DNA from: a virus
Strand: one strand, 5' to 3'
DNA length: 58,454 bases
IMG/VR virus record: IMGVR_UViG_3300034105_001504
Location: 1 to 58,454 of that record
Made by a program: the position numbers and the translations under genes. Below are positions 2,602 through 41,829 of the stretch, in pieces. The notes below the pieces were generated by a model. That model was given only the letters and a program-made list of their open reading frames with translations, had not been told where the DNA came from and searched no databases. The stretch's first letter is position 1. Every line of letters begins with the position of its first letter.

Positions 2602-4788
2602 ATGGGATTAAAATTTAGACGTGGTACGACCGCACAGAAATCAGGTTCGTTAGCATTTGGTGAACCATATGTAAATACAGATTTAGGAACTTTACAAATT
2701 GGTGGTGCAAGTGGTGATATTACATTGGGTTCATCCGGAACAGGAAGTGCAGGTTCATTCTCTGGTATTTCGGGTTCTTCATTAGACATTACAGGAAACG
2801 CAAAAATTGATGGTAACTTAATATTAGGTGGAGCAATTACAATTGGTGATAATGTAAGTGATACTGTTAACGTTGTAGCATCTTTAAGTTCTTCATTAAT
2901 CCCATCAACAACTAATACGTTTGATTTGGGTTCTACAACTAAAGTTTGGAAAGATTTATATATTTCAACTGGTTCAATTAAATTTGTAGAAGGTAGTACA
3001 GTAGTTTCAACTTTAACCGAACATGCATTTAGTGCAATTTCTGGTGGATACATTACATTTTCTGCGATGTTAAATGATGGTAGAATTGCAACTACCGATA
3101 ATAGTAAAACAAATAAATTTACAGGTTCTCAATTCATAAATGGTGATATAAATATAACAGGTTCAATTGTACCTGGAGTAAGTAATACATATGATTTAGG
3201 TTCGGTAGATAAATTTTTCAGAGATTTATATATTTCAACCGGTTCAATCAAAATGGTATCTAATGGTGTAGTAGTTTCTACATTATCAAATACCGGAAAC
3301 GGAATGATAATGGATCAGGGTTTAACTGCAAAAGGTGATAGTTCATTTGGTACTTCATCTGCAGCAGTAACCGCAGTAACTGGTTCATTAAAAGTTAGTG
3401 GTTCAATATCATTAATTGGTACATTAAGTGCATCAACAATAACAGGTATAGGAAATGTATCTTTATATAGTACATCAGTAGATAGTAGATTAGTAGCAGC
3501 AGAAGCATTTAGTTCTTCATTGGATACAACATTTGCAACAGATGCAAGTGTAACGATTGTAAGTGCAAGTGCATGGGGAGCATTCCAAAGTGCATCATCA
3601 TATAGTAGTTCATTAGCAACTTCAATTAGTGCAAGCAAAGCAGAGTATACTTCATTTAGTGCATCAAATGCATCAACTGATAATACTCAAACAACAAATA
3701 TAACTGCAAATAGTGCAAGTGCATGGGGAGCATTCCAAAGTGCATCGGCATACTCTGCAAGTGCAGCAACTGAATTTAGTGCTTCAAATGCAGCAAGAGT
3801 AGCATTAAGTGCATCGGTAGCAGCAAGTGGATTCGCAGTAAGTAGTTCAGTAGCATCAGCAACAGCAACATCAATAACCGCATTAAGTAGTTCAGTTAAA
3901 GCAGTAACCGATACGTTTGCAACTTCTGCAAGTGTAGCAAGTGCAACGGCAACTTCTATAACTTCATTAAGTTCAAGTGTTAAAGCAGTAACCGATACGT
4001 TTGCAACTTCTGCAAGTGTAGCAAGTGCAACTGCAACTTCTATAACTTCATTGAGTAGTTCAGTTAAAGCAGTAACCGATACTTTTGCAACTTCTGCAAG
4101 TGTAGCAAGTGCAACTGCAACTTCTATATCAACAATAAGTGGTTCAGTTAAAACTGTAACAGATGCATTAAGTGGTAGAGTAACAACATTGGAAGGAAAA
4201 GATATTTCAATTACGTTAACAGGTGATGTAACAGGTACTGGTACAATAACAGATTTAGCTAACGTATCATTTGCAACTACAATCGCTGCTAATTCAGTAG
4301 CATTGGGAACTGATACAACCGGTGATTACGTTGCAAGTTTAGTACAAGGAACTGGTGTTACAATCACAAACAATAGTGGTGAAGGTGCAACTCCAACAAT
4401 TTCAATTGGACAAGCGGTAGCAACAAACTCAGCAGTAGCATTCGCAAGTGTATCTGCAACGGGTGATATCGTAGCGTTCTCAGGTTCAGATAGAAGATTA
4501 AAAAATAACATCGTAAACATTTCAGATGCATTAAATAAAGTTAAACAATTAAATGGTGTAACTTGGGAATGGAATGAAGATGCAAATGAAGTAACTAAAA
4601 CCGCACCTTCAACTGGTTTAATCGCACAAGAAGTGCAAGAAGTTTTACCAGAAGTAGTAAAAGAAAGAGAAGATGGATATTTAGGTATCGATTACTCTAA
4701 GATGGTTGGTTTATTAGTAGAAGCAATTAAAGAGCAACAAACACAAATAGCTGAATTAAAAGCAGAAGTAGAAGCTCTAAAAAAATAA
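2602..4788 (+). CDS. Second long tail fibre with S74 chaperone domain
   Basis: This 728-aa protein begins MGLKFRRGTTAQ, a start typical of phage fibres of this type. The shaft is Ser/Ala/Thr-rich, has two SAWGAFQSAS copies and contains an 84-bp tandem repeat (28-residue unit, residues ~416-520). The C-terminal ~100 residues are an S74 autocleaving chaperone: SDRRLKNNI, GLIAQEVQEVLPEVV and LGIDYSKMVGLLVEAIKEQ, then a coiled coil. It shares whole blocks with the upstream fibre, which implies duplication and probably recombination between them. Role by family: trimeric receptor-binding fibre. No Shine-Dalgarno is visible; the leader is A-rich. Confidence 0.9.
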   Translation: MGLKFRRGTTAQKSGSLAFGEPYVNTDLGTLQIGGASGDITLGSSGTGSAGSFSGISGSSLDITGNAKIDGNLILGGAITIGDNVSDTVNVVASLSSSLIPSTTNTFDLGSTTKVWKDLYISTGSIKFVEGSTVVSTLTEHAFSAISGGYITFSAMLNDGRIATTDNSKTNKFTGSQFINGDINITGSIVPGVSNTYDLGSVDKFFRDLYISTGSIKMVSNGVVVSTLSNTGNGMIMDQGLTAKGDSSFGTSSAAVTAVTGSLKVSGSISLIGTLSASTITGIGNVSLYSTSVDSRLVAAEAFSSSLDTTFATDASVTIVSASAWGAFQSASSYSSSLATSISASKAEYTSFSASNASTDNTQTTNITANSASAWGAFQSASAYSASAATEFSASNAARVALSASVAASGFAVSSSVASATATSITALSSSVKAVTDTFATSASVASATATSITSLSSSVKAVTDTFATSASVASATATSITSLSSSVKAVTDTFATSASVASATATSISTISGSVKTVTDALSGRVTTLEGKDISITLTGDVTGTGTITDLANVSFATTIAANSVALGTDTTGDYVASLVQGTGVTITNNSGEGATPTISIGQAVATNSAVAFASVSATGDIVAFSGSDRRLKNNIVNISDALNKVKQLNGVTWEWNEDANEVTKTAPSTGLIAQEVQEVLPEVVKEREDGYLGIDYSKMVGLLVEAIKEQQTQIAELKAEVEALKK
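3847..4170 (+). repeat. 84-bp tandem repeat in fibre shaft
   Basis: Three full 84-bp units start at 3847, 3931 and 4015, and a degraded fourth starts at 4099. Each encodes a 28-residue unit beginning SVASATATSI and ending TDTFATSA. Copies differ mainly at synonymous or A/S/T positions, as expected for recent slippage or unequal recombination. Confidence 0.9.
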
Positions 4789-7856: not shown

Positions 7857-10136
7857 ATGGCTGAAAAATTAGTATCGCCGGGTGTATTTACAAGAGAAAA
7901 CGATTTATCATTCATAGCACAAGGAGTTGGAGCTATTGGTGGAGCAATCGTAGGACCTTTCAAACAAGGACCGGCGTTTAAACCAACAATCGTAACATCA
8001 CCATCTGAGTTAGAAGATATCTTCGGTGCAGCTGATGGTACATATTATACAGAATTAACCGCTCAAAATTATTTAAGAGAGACAGGTTTAGTAACTATTT
8101 GTAGAGTAGCAGGTATCGGTGGATATACTGAAACAGCTCCTATTGTATTAACAGCAACAAGTGGTGCAGTATCTGCATCAATTGGTATTGTATTTAATGC
8201 AAGTAGTGCTTCTAATGCAGGATTTACTGGAACAACATTAACAACAAATACTAGTGGTGATTTCTTCATTTCAGGTTCAACTATCGGACAATATAGTGCA
8301 TCAGTTGATCCAGTGGATAATATGGATATAGAAGATGTATTCGGAACATCACCATTTGGTTCTAAAAAAGCATATGTATATGGTTTATTTAAGAATCATG
8401 GTATTACATTTGATGCAAATACAACTGTAACTGCATCAGTAATTGCAAATCAAGACTTTACAAATGATGCAACTTACGCTTCTACACCATGGATTCAATC
8501 TCAATTGATTGGTGGTAGTAGATTTAATTTAGTTAAGTTTCATACTTTAGCTGATGGTAATGTAGAAAATACAAGATTTAAAATTACAATTAGTAATGTT
8601 AAAGCAGCGGGTGATATCAATGGTTCTGATTTCGGAACATTCACCATAGTTGTAAGAGATTTTAACGATACAGATAAAAGAAAAACAATTTTAGAGCAAT
8701 TTAATAATGTAAATTTAGATCCATCATCAACTAATTTTATTGGTAGAGTAATCGGTGATAGTTATACAACAATCGCATCTGATGGAAAGGTAACAGAATT
8801 AGGTGATTGGGGAAATAAATCTAAATATGTAAGAGTAGAAGTTGATGGTGCAGCTCCAATTGTAGCAGTTCCATTCGGACATGATGCTTATACGTTACCA
8901 ATCGCAACAACAAGTACAATTTCTAATAGAATTCCAGCAGTTACTTATACAACAGCTTCATTGAGTTCTTCGGTATATGCAAGTGGTATTGATTTAGAAG
9001 GAAATACTGATAATAGTATTTATTTAAAACCATTACCTGAAAGTGCTTTGACTGGTGCAAATGTTGCATTCGGTTTAGATTCACAAGTTGGATTAACATT
9101 ATTAACAGCAACTCAAATTACAGATTTAGGATTATCAGTAGCTGCAGTTCAATCATGGAGAACATTTACGGTAGCATTTCAAGGTGGATTTGATGGTATG
9201 AGTGCAGCAACACCAATTTATAAAGGTGCAGATATTAGTTCAACAAATGTTCAAGGATTTAACTTATCAACTTCTGCAGCAAGTGGTTCAGTAGCATATA
9301 AAAAATGTTTAGATGCATTATCAAATGTAGATGAGTGGGATATTAACTTATTAGTATTACCTGGTGTTAATCATAACGACCATAGTAATGTAACTCAATA
9401 CGCAATGGATATATGTGAGAATAGAGCTGATACATTCTATATTATGGATGCAGCAGGACAAAGTGCTGGTATCGCAACGGTAGTAGGTGTAGCAGAAAGT
9501 TTAGATACTAACTATGCAGCGGTTTACTATCCTTGGGTTAAAACAATTGATACAAACACAAACAAATTAATAACAGTTCCACCTTCGGTTTTATTACCTA
9601 GAGTTTATGCAGCTAACGATGCTACATCAGCTGAGTGGTTCGCACCAGCAGGTTTGAATAGAGGTGGTATCACCGGTGCAGTAGCAGTATTAGATAGATT
9701 AACTCATTCTGATAGAGATACTTTATATGAAGGAAAAGTAAATCCAATCGCTCAGTTCCCTGGACAAGGTATCGTAGCATTTGGACAAAAAACCTTACAA
9801 GCTAGACCATCAGCATTAGATAGAATTAATGTTAGAAGATTACTTATCACAGTTAAGAAGTATATTGCTTCAACTAGTAGATATTTAATATTTGAACAAA
9901 ACACAACAGATACAAGAACTAAATTCTTAAATACAGTTAACCCTTATTTAGAGAACATTCAACAAAGACAAGGTTTATACGCATTCAAAGTTGTAATGGA
10001 TGAAACAAACAACACTCCAGACGTAATCGATAGAAACATCTTAAAAGGTGCAATATTCTTACAACCAACTAAAACTGCAGAATTCATTCAAATTGATTTC
10101 AATGTTTTACCAACTGGGGCAACTTTTAACGCATAA
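7857..10136 (+). CDS. Contractile tail sheath protein (T4 gp18-like)
   Basis: A 759-aa protein of typical sheath length. The N-terminus VSPGVFTRENDLS followed by GAIVGPFKQGPAFKP is the hallmark start of the family. The C-terminal part contains NRGGITGAVAV, RDTLYEGKVNPIAQFPGQG, FGQKTLQ and the RINVRRLLITVKKYI / YLIFEQN / FLNTVNPYLENIQ blocks that form the conserved sheath core. A variable surface domain lies between. It forms the contractile outer cylinder of the tail. The tube gene follows 43 bp downstream. It has a real Shine-Dalgarno and a late-type box, consistent with very high late expression. Confidence 0.96.
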   Translation: MAEKLVSPGVFTRENDLSFIAQGVGAIGGAIVGPFKQGPAFKPTIVTSPSELEDIFGAADGTYYTELTAQNYLRETGLVTICRVAGIGGYTETAPIVLTATSGAVSASIGIVFNASSASNAGFTGTTLTTNTSGDFFISGSTIGQYSASVDPVDNMDIEDVFGTSPFGSKKAYVYGLFKNHGITFDANTTVTASVIANQDFTNDATYASTPWIQSQLIGGSRFNLVKFHTLADGNVENTRFKITISNVKAAGDINGSDFGTFTIVVRDFNDTDKRKTILEQFNNVNLDPSSTNFIGRVIGDSYTTIASDGKVTELGDWGNKSKYVRVEVDGAAPIVAVPFGHDAYTLPIATTSTISNRIPAVTYTTASLSSSVYASGIDLEGNTDNSIYLKPLPESALTGANVAFGLDSQVGLTLLTATQITDLGLSVAAVQSWRTFTVAFQGGFDGMSAATPIYKGADISSTNVQGFNLSTSAASGSVAYKKCLDALSNVDEWDINLLVLPGVNHNDHSNVTQYAMDICENRADTFYIMDAAGQSAGIATVVGVAESLDTNYAAVYYPWVKTIDTNTNKLITVPPSVLLPRVYAANDATSAEWFAPAGLNRGGITGAVAVLDRLTHSDRDTLYEGKVNPIAQFPGQGIVAFGQKTLQARPSALDRINVRRLLITVKKYIASTSRYLIFEQNTTDTRTKFLNTVNPYLENIQQRQGLYAFKVVMDETNNTPDVIDRNILKGAIFLQPTKTAEFIQIDFNVLPTGATFNA

Positions 10137-39809: not shown

Positions 39810-39841
39810 TTTGGTAGATTGAAATAATTGTTGTATCTTTA
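39810..39841 (+). promoter_or_regulatory. Promoter for the tmRNA
   Basis: TTTGGTAG with TTTG at 39810-39813, a 20-bp spacer and TATCTTTA (39834-39841). The tmRNA 5' end lies 21 bp after the box, leaving a short leader for RNase P removal. Confidence 0.75.
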
Positions 39842-39861: not shown

Positions 39862-40235
39862 GGGGATGCTTTGGAATTGATTGCAATGAGAATTGTAGTA
39901 TCACACGTAGAGGTAAGTGCTAGAAACTCTTTAAAACTGCACAAAACAATAACTGACGAAATGTCAACTATGACCTTTGATTCCTTAATGGATTTCATCG
40001 GTGCCGATTACGCTGTAGCAGCATAATTACTCCCGTACACATCATGGGACAATTAAATAGAATGTGAAATCGTTTTCTTTGTTATTTCAAAACAAAGTGG
40101 TGGACCGTTGTACTAACCATACAGCCTCAATTCTTTTGAAAAGTTAGTAAGATTAAAACTTTATTCTAAACGTGTGACATGCTGGTATTATGATTACTTT
40201 GTAAGACAAGGGTTCGACTCCCTTCATCTCCACCA
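39862..40235 (+). ncRNA. ssrA: Transfer-messenger RNA (tmRNA) encoded by the phage
   Basis: A 374-nt gene. The acceptor is GGGGATG (39862-39868) paired with CATCTCC, followed by an encoded ACCA ending at 40235. The T arm is AAGGG-TTCGACT-CCCTT. An internal tag frame ends ...GCC GAT TAC GCT GTA GCA GCA TAA (stop 40024-40026), giving a C-terminal ADYAVAA that closely resembles the canonical ...NYALAA degron. By alignment with the Bacteroidetes 'AACTGGCGAA' resume site, translation probably resumes at GAC (39955), so the tag would have about 23 residues beginning DEMSTM. A small hairpin follows the stop. It has its own promoter. Role: trans-translation, tagging stalled products for proteolysis. 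Confidence 0.93.
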
Positions 40236-40239
40236 ATAT

Positions 40240-40312
40240 CGCGATGTAGTAGCAGAGGTAGCTCGCTAGGCTCATAACCTAGAGGTCGGAAGTTCGAATC
40301 TTTCCATCGCAA
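40240..40312 (+). tRNA. tRNA-Met(CAT), initiator-like
   Basis: The anticodon loop is CTCATAA on the stem CTAGG/CCTAG. The acceptor CGCGATG pairs with CATCGCA except for C1 x A72, the mismatch that marks bacterial initiator tRNA. Only two of the three initiator G-C pairs are present in the anticodon stem. The D stem is GAGC-like with one bulged T. The T arm is GGAAG-TTCGAAT-CTTTC. No CCA is encoded. Confidence 0.85.
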
Positions 40313-40316
40313 CAAA

Positions 40317-40394
40317 TGTTAGGGTTGAAGCCATCAACTAATAAAACCGATTGAGTGAGGTGTTCGACACCGAAGAAAGCCGGATATCCTAACA
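40317..40394 (+). ncRNA. Compact structured RNA, unknown class
   Basis: A perfect 7-bp closing helix (TGTTAGG / CCTAACA) encloses two perfect hairpins: GTTGA-AGCCA-TCAAC and GGTGT-TCG-ACACC. The length (78 nt) and acceptor-like helix suggest a tRNA-derived RNA, but no anticodon arm or T arm exists. It could be a decayed type II tRNA or a separate RNA class. Confidence 0.5.
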
Positions 40395-40414
40395 AAATAA
40401 AAAACCCAAAGAAA

Positions 40415-40446
40415 TTTGGTAGATTGAAAAACTTATCGTATCTTTA
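40415..40446 (+). promoter_or_regulatory. Bacteroidetes-type promoter in RNA region
   Basis: TTTGGTAG with TTTG at 40415-40418, a 20-bp spacer and TATCTTTA (40439-40446). The expected start (about +4) falls at the foot of the small hairpin RNA below. Confidence 0.7.
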
Positions 40447-40451
40447 ATTTA

Positions 40452-40499
40452 TAAGATTGGAACTTATAGGTGATGAAAGATACTCGGTATTCAATCTTA
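40452..40499 (+). ncRNA. Small hairpin RNA directly after a promoter
   Basis: A perfect 8-bp closing helix (TAAGATTG / CAATCTTA) contains a small ATAC-TCG-GTAT hairpin. It begins 6 bp after the -7 box, so it would form the very 5' end of the transcript. It may be a stability cap or a leader of the large RNA downstream; no terminator follows. Confidence 0.45.
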
Positions 40500-40519
40500 G
40501 GAAAAAAAGTTTACAAATA

Positions 40520-40551
40520 TTTGGTACTTTGAAAAAATTATCGTATATTTA
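40520..40551 (+). promoter_or_regulatory. Promoter of the large ornate RNA
   Basis: TTTGGTAC with TTTG at 40520-40523, a 20-bp spacer and TATATTTA (40544-40551). It drives a ~1-kb stretch without a credible protein gene. Confidence 0.72.
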
Positions 40552-40557
40552 TAAAAC

Positions 40558-41597
40558 AATAGGGTAACACCTAAAAAGTTCTTTACATTATTGAAAATAT
40601 TTCACATAGTAAGTTTATCTTACATAGTGAATAACGGCCGCATATGGTCGGTAAATAAACTTGGAAACAAGGATAAAGTGGGTGTATTAAGTGATACATC
40701 TGCGGTTACTTTCCCCGTAAGGAGAGACTAACTCAAGTATGCAAGTGGGATATTATTTAGGCTTTGTACGAAAGGGTAACACTATATCGGAACAGTCAGA
40801 ATAATTGGGGTATTATAGATACTCTAATTGAGGTGGGAACACCAATAAGAATAACCCATAGAATATCAGTAAGAAATGTAGACTTAATCCCTCTACATCA
40901 TTGCGGTATTCATTATCAGAGTGGTCTTAACATCAAACCATCCGAAAGGACGTAAGATAAGACTGTGTACAGGTGGTGCTGTTACTATCCTTTGAACTAG
41001 TTTACCAAAACTACTCAATGAAGATGACTCAAAATAACGCAGTAGGGATATTGCATCGGGTAGTTTAGTATTCTCTCGACCAAAAGTTGGGGGAGCTAGT
41101 GGTAAACCACTACCTGAATAATTCTATAAACTAAAACTCAATTTTTACTTCGGTGTAAAAACTACAATTTAAAAATTAAGCTTAAGTGTTTACCAGTTGC
41201 AGGTGAAAGGTGTGTACATAGTTAAGAGCTGTTCTTAGCCACGATACTTCCGCAAGAAGTCTGTGATTCTATCGAAAGGTTTCTAATTCCGCAAGAATTA
41301 ATTAGGCTGCGAGGCTTGAAGAAAATGATTAAGTAGAGAGTAATCGGCAACTTAAAGACTGATAGTCTTAAATCATCCACATTGAATTGGTACTACTCAA
41401 AAGGTAGTGGAAACGGAAGGAACTAATAATCTTTCTAAAGCTGGTTCACAATATGGAGTATTCTCATCCCTATTTTATTTTATCATAATGGTTAATGTTG
41501 GTTCGATTCCAATAATGATAGCAGAGTAATTCATCGAGGCTAGTATTAACCGGAGCATGACTTGACGTGGCGTATTTTGAAGATTGATTACTTTTTT
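40558..41597 (+). ncRNA. Large (~1.04 kb) ornate structured non-coding RNA
   Basis: The stretch has its own promoter, no convincing protein gene and dense helices. Examples: AAGTTTAT 40611 / ATAAACTT 40655 around CGGCC/GGTCG; GGTGTAT/ATACATC (40681-40700); GGTG-GGAA-CACC (40832-40843); ATGTAGA/TCTACAT (40876-40898); GTCTTA/TAAGAC (40924-40963) around TCC-GAAA-GGA; TTTTTAC-TTCGGT-GTAAAAA (41142-41161); two CGCAA-loop hairpins (41246-41260, 41284-41300); AAGACT-GAT-AGTCTT (41355-41369). GTTTACC 41000 / GGTAAAC 41101 and GGTAGT 41059 / ACTACC 41109 interlock as a pseudoknot. AGTAAT 41525 / ATTACT 41587 closes the end before a T run. Size, tetraloops, pseudoknot and tRNA-cluster position in a phage resemble the GOLLD and ROOL classes; I cannot assign it to either by sequence. 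Confidence 0.72.
41481..41520 (+). other. tRNA-like minihelix (acceptor plus T arm) inside the large RNA
   Basis: TATCAT (41481) pairs with ATGATA (41515-41520) around a perfect T-arm hairpin TTGG-TTCGATT-CCAA (41498-41512). TTCGATT is a canonical T loop and also occurs in several tRNAs of this cluster. There is no D or anticodon arm. Confidence 0.6.
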
Positions 41598-41605
41598 AAT
41601 TCGAT

Positions 41606-41615
41606 TATATTTATA
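41606..41615 (+). promoter_or_regulatory. Late-type TATATTTATA box
   Basis: A perfect lone box after the end of the large RNA and 5 bp before a short ATG frame; it could drive the tRNA array late in infection. Confidence 0.45.
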
Positions 41616-41619
41616 ACAA

Positions 41620-41688
41620 ATGAAAGCATTGACATTACATACACTTTGTAGCACACCGAATCAGATTTGGGGTAGCAGAGATATGTAA
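41620..41688 (+). CDS. Possible 22-aa leaderless ORF
   Basis: MKALTLHTLCSTPNQIWGSR plus two residues, starting 5 bp after a TATATTTATA box, the same spacing as leaderless genes here. There is no other support; it may be chance. Confidence 0.25.
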   Translation: MKALTLHTLCSTPNQIWGSRDM

Positions 41689-41719
41689 AGTTAGGCTAGA
41701 TTTATATTAAGAATTTTAG

Positions 41720-41751
41720 AAAACCCTGACTTTAATTAGTTGGGGTTTTTT
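41720..41751 (+). terminator. Strong terminator between the large RNA and the tRNA array
   Basis: A 12-bp stem (AAAACCCTGACT / AGTTGGGGTTTT with two wobble pairs), loop TTAATT, followed by T6 and a further T5. Confidence 0.9.
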
Positions 41752-41757
41752 GTTTTT

Positions 41758-41829
41758 GGGATGGTAGCTCAGCGGCAGAGCAGATGACTGTTAATCATCA
41801 GGTCGAGATATCGTAATTCTCCCTTCCCT
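41758..41829 (+). tRNA. tRNA-Asn(GTT)
   Basis: Anticodon arm GATGA-CTGTTAA-TCATC; D stem GCTC/GAGC; acceptor GGGATGG/CCTTCCC with one T-T mismatch. The T loop is ATCGTAA instead of TTCRA and the T stem has one mismatch, so the gene may be decaying. Trailer TCAA. Confidence 0.8.

Follow-up and report, generated by a model that had tools for sequence, protein, structure and literature searches.

A T4-like phage carries an ordinary, full-scoring GOLLD RNA of the known class, complete with its 5' domain, and a covarying mini-tRNA is tied to the 3' border of this RNA. We consider it quite probable that RNase P cuts at the mini-tRNA to form the 3' end of this phage GOLLD and that the RNA forms a cage. 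The window, i.e., the whole stretch of virus DNA that was analysed (58,454 nucleotides of a virus record), holds a GOLLD neighbourhood with a tmRNA and 19 tRNAs; one tRNA lies between the tmRNA and GOLLD, and 18 more lie downstream of GOLLD. Its tail sheath protein shares 41% identity with the counterpart in Flavobacterium phage immuto and 47% with the one in Microcystis phage Mel-JY01. The features referred to below, all on the + strand, are as follows.

39862-40235, +, tmRNA gene, upstream of GOLLD
40240-40313, +, tRNA-Met between tmRNA and GOLLD
40520-40551, +, Bacteroidota-type promoter TTTG-N20-TATATTTA, called from its motif sequence and kept in relatives
40605-41054, +, GOLLD 5' domain, outside the Rfam model, from covariation and similarity to other GOLLD loci
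41056-41470, +, GOLLD 3' domain, matching the complete Rfam RF02032 model (positions 1-416)
41056-41117, +, first 3'-domain helix (41056-41064 pairing with 41109-41117), from covariation
41101-41194, +, true pseudoknot helix (41101-41107 with 41188-41194), from covariation
41480-41522, +, mini-tRNA-like element, from model R1, acceptor covariation and its position behind GOLLD
41525-41600, +, structured element with a T run at its end, conserved in 17 distinct related sequences
41620-41688, +, tiny ORF MKALTLHTLCSTPNQIWGSRDM, from translations, its start MKxLxLHT conserved in relatives
41717-41752, +, intrinsic terminator before the tRNA array, from sequence

A two-domain GOLLD RNA with a linker pseudoknot

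Scanning the window with Infernal against Rfam 15 (cmscan), a check that the earlier note had proposed, yielded GOLLD and not ROOL: RF02032 matched at 41056-41470 with 283.4 bits (E = 6.5e-80), against a curated cut-off of 150 bits. The ROOL covariance model gave no match at its gathering threshold, nor at any E up to 10 over 40300-41770, and no other Rfam family besides GOLLD matched in that interval, where the 5' half was matched by no model at all. The earlier suggestion of a divergent GOLLD or ROOL member or of a new class thus survives in its naming of GOLLD, while divergence, ROOL and novelty fall away. The ornate helices and CGCAA loops that had been described are present and agree with the GOLLD covariance model.

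To place the 5' half, we drew on a search pattern from the conserved 3' part, which returned more than 118 GOLLD loci among the IMG/VR matches listed; these viral contigs are fragments, and the alignments made from them are sequence-based. Similarity to window positions 40571-41056 was found in 89 of 99 full-length GOLLD loci. Consensus folding of 35 sequences with RNAalifold mapped 134 pairs of the 5' half to the window, with 92.9% of cells paired, and both-side changes were observed among the 35 homologues at 95 of these pairs. Because the 5' half shows both sequence similarity and covariation with other GOLLD loci, the whole stretch is one GOLLD RNA. The absence of a credible protein gene was likewise borne out, as the longest internal ORF encodes 63 aa and, in the window as well as in eight relatives, each frame over ~900 nt contains 15-29 stops, with no open run exceeding 64 codons.

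Covariation in homologues strongly supports the structure, although it rejects one pairing that had been named. The first helix of the 3' domain (41056-64 with 41109-17) was paired in 99.7% of cells among 35 homologues, with both-side changes at five of its nine pairs, and interlocking with it we found the helix 41101-07/41188-94, which was paired in 99.2% of cells, and changed on both sides at six of seven pairs (58 cells versus a shuffled mean of 18). The interlocking pseudoknot reported earlier therefore exists, and it closes the variable linker (about 41118-41187), but the partner of 41101-07 is 41188-94 and not 41000-06: the latter pairing was present in 66.8% of cells of the 35 homologues, within the range of shuffled controls (mean 63.9%, maximum 67.2%). 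The GTTT of 41000-03 forms part of a local hairpin.

The promoter claimed upstream of the RNA is present at 40520-40551, where TTTG at 40520 is followed, after a 20-nt spacer, by TATATTTA at 40544-40551, a spacing that we take to be that of a Bacteroidota-type promoter. Exact matches to TTTGGNANNNTGAAA occur at 39810, 40415 and 40520 and precede both the tmRNA and GOLLD. A scan for sigma-70 promoters gave 8 matches versus 5.7 in shuffles, no better than shuffled sequence, and a strict promoter pattern with 3 mismatches allowed gave zero matches. Since the sigma-70 scan stayed at shuffle level, the promoter call rests on the repetition of the Bacteroidota-type motif before the tmRNA and GOLLD. 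The predicted transcription start lies near 40557, and, given these Bacteroidota-type promoters, the phage probably infects a member of the Bacteroidota.

A covarying mini-tRNA in the slot behind GOLLD

Ten nucleotides after the end of GOLLD (~41470) begins a 43-base element, UUAUCAU-AAUGGUUAAU-GUUGG-UUCGAUU-CCAAU-A-AUGAUAG-C, which we refer to as a mini-tRNA. It consists of a 7-bp acceptor (UUAUCAU/AUGAUAG), a D-loop-like AAUGGUU within AAUGGUUAAU, and a T-arm (GUUGG-UUCGAUU-CCAAU) of 5 bp with the canonical 7-nt T-loop UUCGAUU. It has neither a D-stem nor an anticodon arm, no CCA is encoded after the acceptor, and an A-A mismatch or bulged A sits between the stems. Neither ARAGORN nor Rfam (RF00005) called a tRNA at 41480-41522, which lacks a four-arm cloverleaf. 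The earlier note had passed over this covarying element.

The association with GOLLD was evident from a search of IMG/VR with a pattern restricted to the D-loop and T-arm. Among the matches listed, 24 contigs carried it, and in 23 of them it lay directly 3' of GOLLD, starting 8-13 nt past the last conserved UCUCA of the RNA; the 24th had no acceptor stem. In the 16 distinct sequences, 99% of mini-tRNA cells were paired and four of the seven acceptor pairs showed both-side changes, with variants such as UUAUCAU/AUGAUAG, UUAUCUA/UAGAUAA, CUUUCUC/GAGAGAG and UUUUUAC/GUAAAAG, among others. The acceptor covariation amounted to 0.492, compared with 0.195 ± 0.026 after shuffling and no more than 0.165 after sliding. 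From these 16 sequences we built a covariance model (R1), which matched the window with 70.3 bits (E = 6.2e-13) as the sole match at E<=1, and scanning 12 GOLLD-linked records whole (up to 287 kb) returned exactly one R1 match in each, namely the mini-tRNA.

In other GOLLDs, the same slot is occupied by different elements. Within a non-redundant, unbiased set of 95 GOLLD loci, an ARAGORN tRNA starts within 30 nt in 22, a mini-tRNA is found in 4 and an intrinsic terminator in 42; among the 27 others, of which two are truncated contigs, several show degenerate or missed tRNAs by eye. Full slot tRNAs usually start 9-19 nt downstream of GOLLD: in 114 loci, the 10-19 nt bin holds the starts of 21 of 23 such tRNAs, although the overall density (211 tRNAs per downstream kb over the 114 loci) predicts ~2 there, and 17 of the 23 are tRNA-Met. 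As related loci are not independent, these slot counts describe a pattern and not a probability. In Mycobacterium alsense (L177), GOLLD ends at 2317 and a tRNA starts at 2330, 13 nt on, and the slot rule thus crosses phyla; the linker of this GOLLD also holds a tRNA (1953-2025; the locus with both tRNAs spans 1868-2402). Only four of 16 genome-contig matches to the GOLLD pattern were GOLLD, the rest being chance matches.

Some loci depart from this arrangement. Degenerate slot tRNAs with a damaged T-loop were seen in L016, L028, L097 and L119, and neither a tRNA nor a clear terminator in L008, L031, L070 and L083. Hairpins after GOLLD in L003, L045, L094, L108 and L114, and in L019 and L095, were rejected as mini-tRNAs on account of a non-canonical T-loop and no clear covariation. 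The first five share a two-tier hairpin, CGCAA-GTTGGACATTTT-AGAGG-TTCGTTT-CCTCT-A-TTGCG, which may be a diverged mini-tRNA.

Formation of the GOLLD 3' end

The likeliest role of the mini-tRNA, judging from its sequence, is the release of the GOLLD 3' end by RNase P. Transcription would start near 40557 at the host-type promoter. The transcript has two folded domains, a variable one on the 5' side and a conserved one, with the linker pseudoknot, on the 3' side. Host RNase P would recognise the acceptor and T-arm of the mini-tRNA at 41480-41522 and cut at about 41479/41480, yielding a mature RNA of ~920 nt with no terminator involved. More generally, RNase P would form the 3' end wherever a tRNA or mini-tRNA follows GOLLD, and transcription termination would do so elsewhere. 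Rising expression during lysis is a trait of the GOLLD class. By analogy to one GOLLD (env-38), the RNA should self-assemble late in infection into a hollow homo-oligomeric cage, for which we favour a role as a late-infection RNA container or scaffold; env-38 was resolved by cryo-EM as a hollow homo-oligomeric 14-mer cage (PMC12286853).

Some RNase P enzymes cleave less well when an encoded CCA is missing, as it is here, which counts against the proposal, as do the A-A mismatch or bulged A, the degenerate slot tRNAs, and the loci with neither tRNA nor terminator. RNase P is proposed as the maker of the 3' end because the mini-tRNA has the parts of a minimal substrate (7 + 5 bp and a canonical 7-nt T-loop, its cleavage being a prediction): the classical minimal substrate of RNase P consists of an acceptor stem and a T-arm, and natural non-tRNA substrates include the phage M3 and C4 RNAs (PMC11143913). 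The closest likeness is to the AT1/pMini substrate, which shares the acceptor, T-stem, T-loop and ~12 bp from the T-loop to the expected cut (PMC11143913); the mini-tRNA differs in being natural and phage-encoded, in keeping the D-loop-like AAUGGUU and in encoding no CCA, and its cleavage is predicted. C4 antisense RNA and M3 RNA resemble it as phage non-tRNA RNAs cut by host RNase P (PMC11143913), an event predicted here.

Comparison with other large RNAs places the locus further. In eukaryotes, RNase P forms the 3' end of the long noncoding RNA MALAT1 at a tRNA-like structure, mascRNA. The GOLLD arrangement would work in a similar way, with a long noncoding RNA followed directly by a tRNA-like processing element, but the two are not homologous, and mascRNA is larger and cloverleaf-like. 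Like known GOLLDs (RF02032; env-38, PMC12286853), this one has a conserved 3' domain, a less-conserved 5' domain and a variable linker, here short and without a tRNA, and lies adjacent to tRNAs in a phage; it differs in the covarying mini-tRNA at its 3' border, of which our literature search found no description. ROOL is similarly a large, tRNA-adjacent phage RNA that forms an RNA cage, but has no match in the window.

A considerably less probable reading is that the mini-tRNA stays attached to the 3' end of GOLLD and mimics a tRNA, serving end protection, CCA acceptance, or docking of the cage to ribosomes or tRNA-handling enzymes. Its D-loop/T-loop core is indeed conserved beyond the needs of a bare hairpin, and ribosome binding of GOLLD in pull-downs is reported in work that PMC12286853 cites. 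A mimic of this kind would, however, have no anticodon and no encoded CCA, and full tRNAs or terminators substitute for it in other GOLLDs, so an interchangeable end signal fits better than a specific docking part. It seems improbable that the mini-tRNA is a functionless, decaying relic of an array tRNA gene: tRNA arrays do lose and gain genes, and in tight relatives (L028, L087) a tRNA, either full or degenerate, occupies this slot, but the acceptor pairs change in concert and unrelated phages share the compact architecture with its invariant D-loop and T-loop.

We find it still harder to credit that the RNA ends further downstream, with the mini-tRNA embedded in a longer transcript. A helix followed by a T run (41590-41598) and a terminator, which had been claimed at 41720 and is real at 41717-41752, could both provide such an end, and the earlier note had placed the 3' end at 41597 on the basis of the closing helix and T run. 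GOLLD, however, ends at ~41470, and that helix belongs to a separate element (41525-41600), which stands at varying distances from GOLLD among 17 distinct related sequences (e.g., L097, L106, L125, L146) and goes with the tiny ORF. This element, GAGGCTnnTATTAACCnGAGCATGACTTG... closed by AGTAATT/AATTACT and then a T run, has no Rfam match and is possibly a cis-regulatory leader of the ORF. In some relatives (L106 at about 2150-2370, L097, L125 and L040), a conserved stretch of ~200 nt, TTCGTAGTGGTTTA...GTATGGTTTTCCGTAGGGGATTTT...CCACCCTACAA, lies between the mini-tRNA and the GAGGCT element and looks like another structured RNA. That the RNA belongs to a different or new large class can be practically dismissed, for although Rfam covers just the 3' 416 nt and no model matches the 5' half, the 3' match is full-length at 283 bits and the 5' half has homologues at other GOLLD loci, with which it covaries.

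Mini-tRNAs beyond GOLLD

A wider form of the mini-tRNA, with an acceptor of 6-7 bp, AATGGTT and a T-arm GTTCGATTC, was found with the looser pattern AATGGTT N3-10 GTTCGATTC, which together with the earlier loci gave 145 distinct contexts among the matches listed. The acceptor was not used for this selection, yet at least five of six acceptor pairs formed in the tRNA register in 68 of the 145 contexts (57 perfect), compared with 1-11 contexts when the register was shifted by two to four bases; a shift of one base gave 23-24, which are probably true length variants. This register histogram is the unbiased acceptor test, as the A3 sequences were chosen by acceptor pairing and their paired percentage is not independent. 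All four Watson-Crick pairs were seen at each of the six acceptor positions. GOLLD linkage was present in only 17 of the 68 acceptor-pairing contexts, and frames of at least 150 codons covered 10% of mini-tRNA sites versus 52% of random sites in the same loci. No Rfam match fell on the mini-tRNA in 11 loci scanned.

Intergenic mini-tRNAs occur in phages without GOLLD (L139 and L190-L305, e.g., L227, L246, L301, L292). L227 carries six in tandem with A-rich unstructured spacers (about 8990-9650, read on the minus strand), and L139 has three between small ORFs. Mini-tRNA-like elements were also noted upstream of terminase genes in a Streptococcus temperate phage (L209, about 3070-3112) and in Streptococcus phage Javan169 (MK448690, 16402-16444), there outside annotated genes.

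We lean slightly toward the view that many kinds of phage encode anticodon-less mini-tRNAs of a class not described before (~42 nt, with a freely covarying 6-7 bp acceptor, an invariant AAUGGUU and a T-arm with UUCGAUU) and use them as RNase P punctuation marks, placed in intergenic positions, in tandem arrays and, to release its 3' end, behind GOLLD. Neither phage mini-tRNAs nor RNase P at GOLLD came up in our literature searches, the founding GOLLD and Mycobacterium GOLLD papers lying outside the search, and an earlier description of mini-tRNAs or of tRNA-based GOLLD 3' processing is possible.

The ends of GOLLD determine what molecule goes into the cage; a tRNA, mini-tRNA or terminator at one GOLLD border offers a simple, testable rule. 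The intergenic family reaches beyond the GOLLD finding and is perhaps the most novel thing to follow from it. Should mini-tRNAs serve as RNase P signals, phages would process RNA with a minimal, natural counterpart of the synthetic RNase P substrate known from textbooks, a signal that standard tRNA finders miss.
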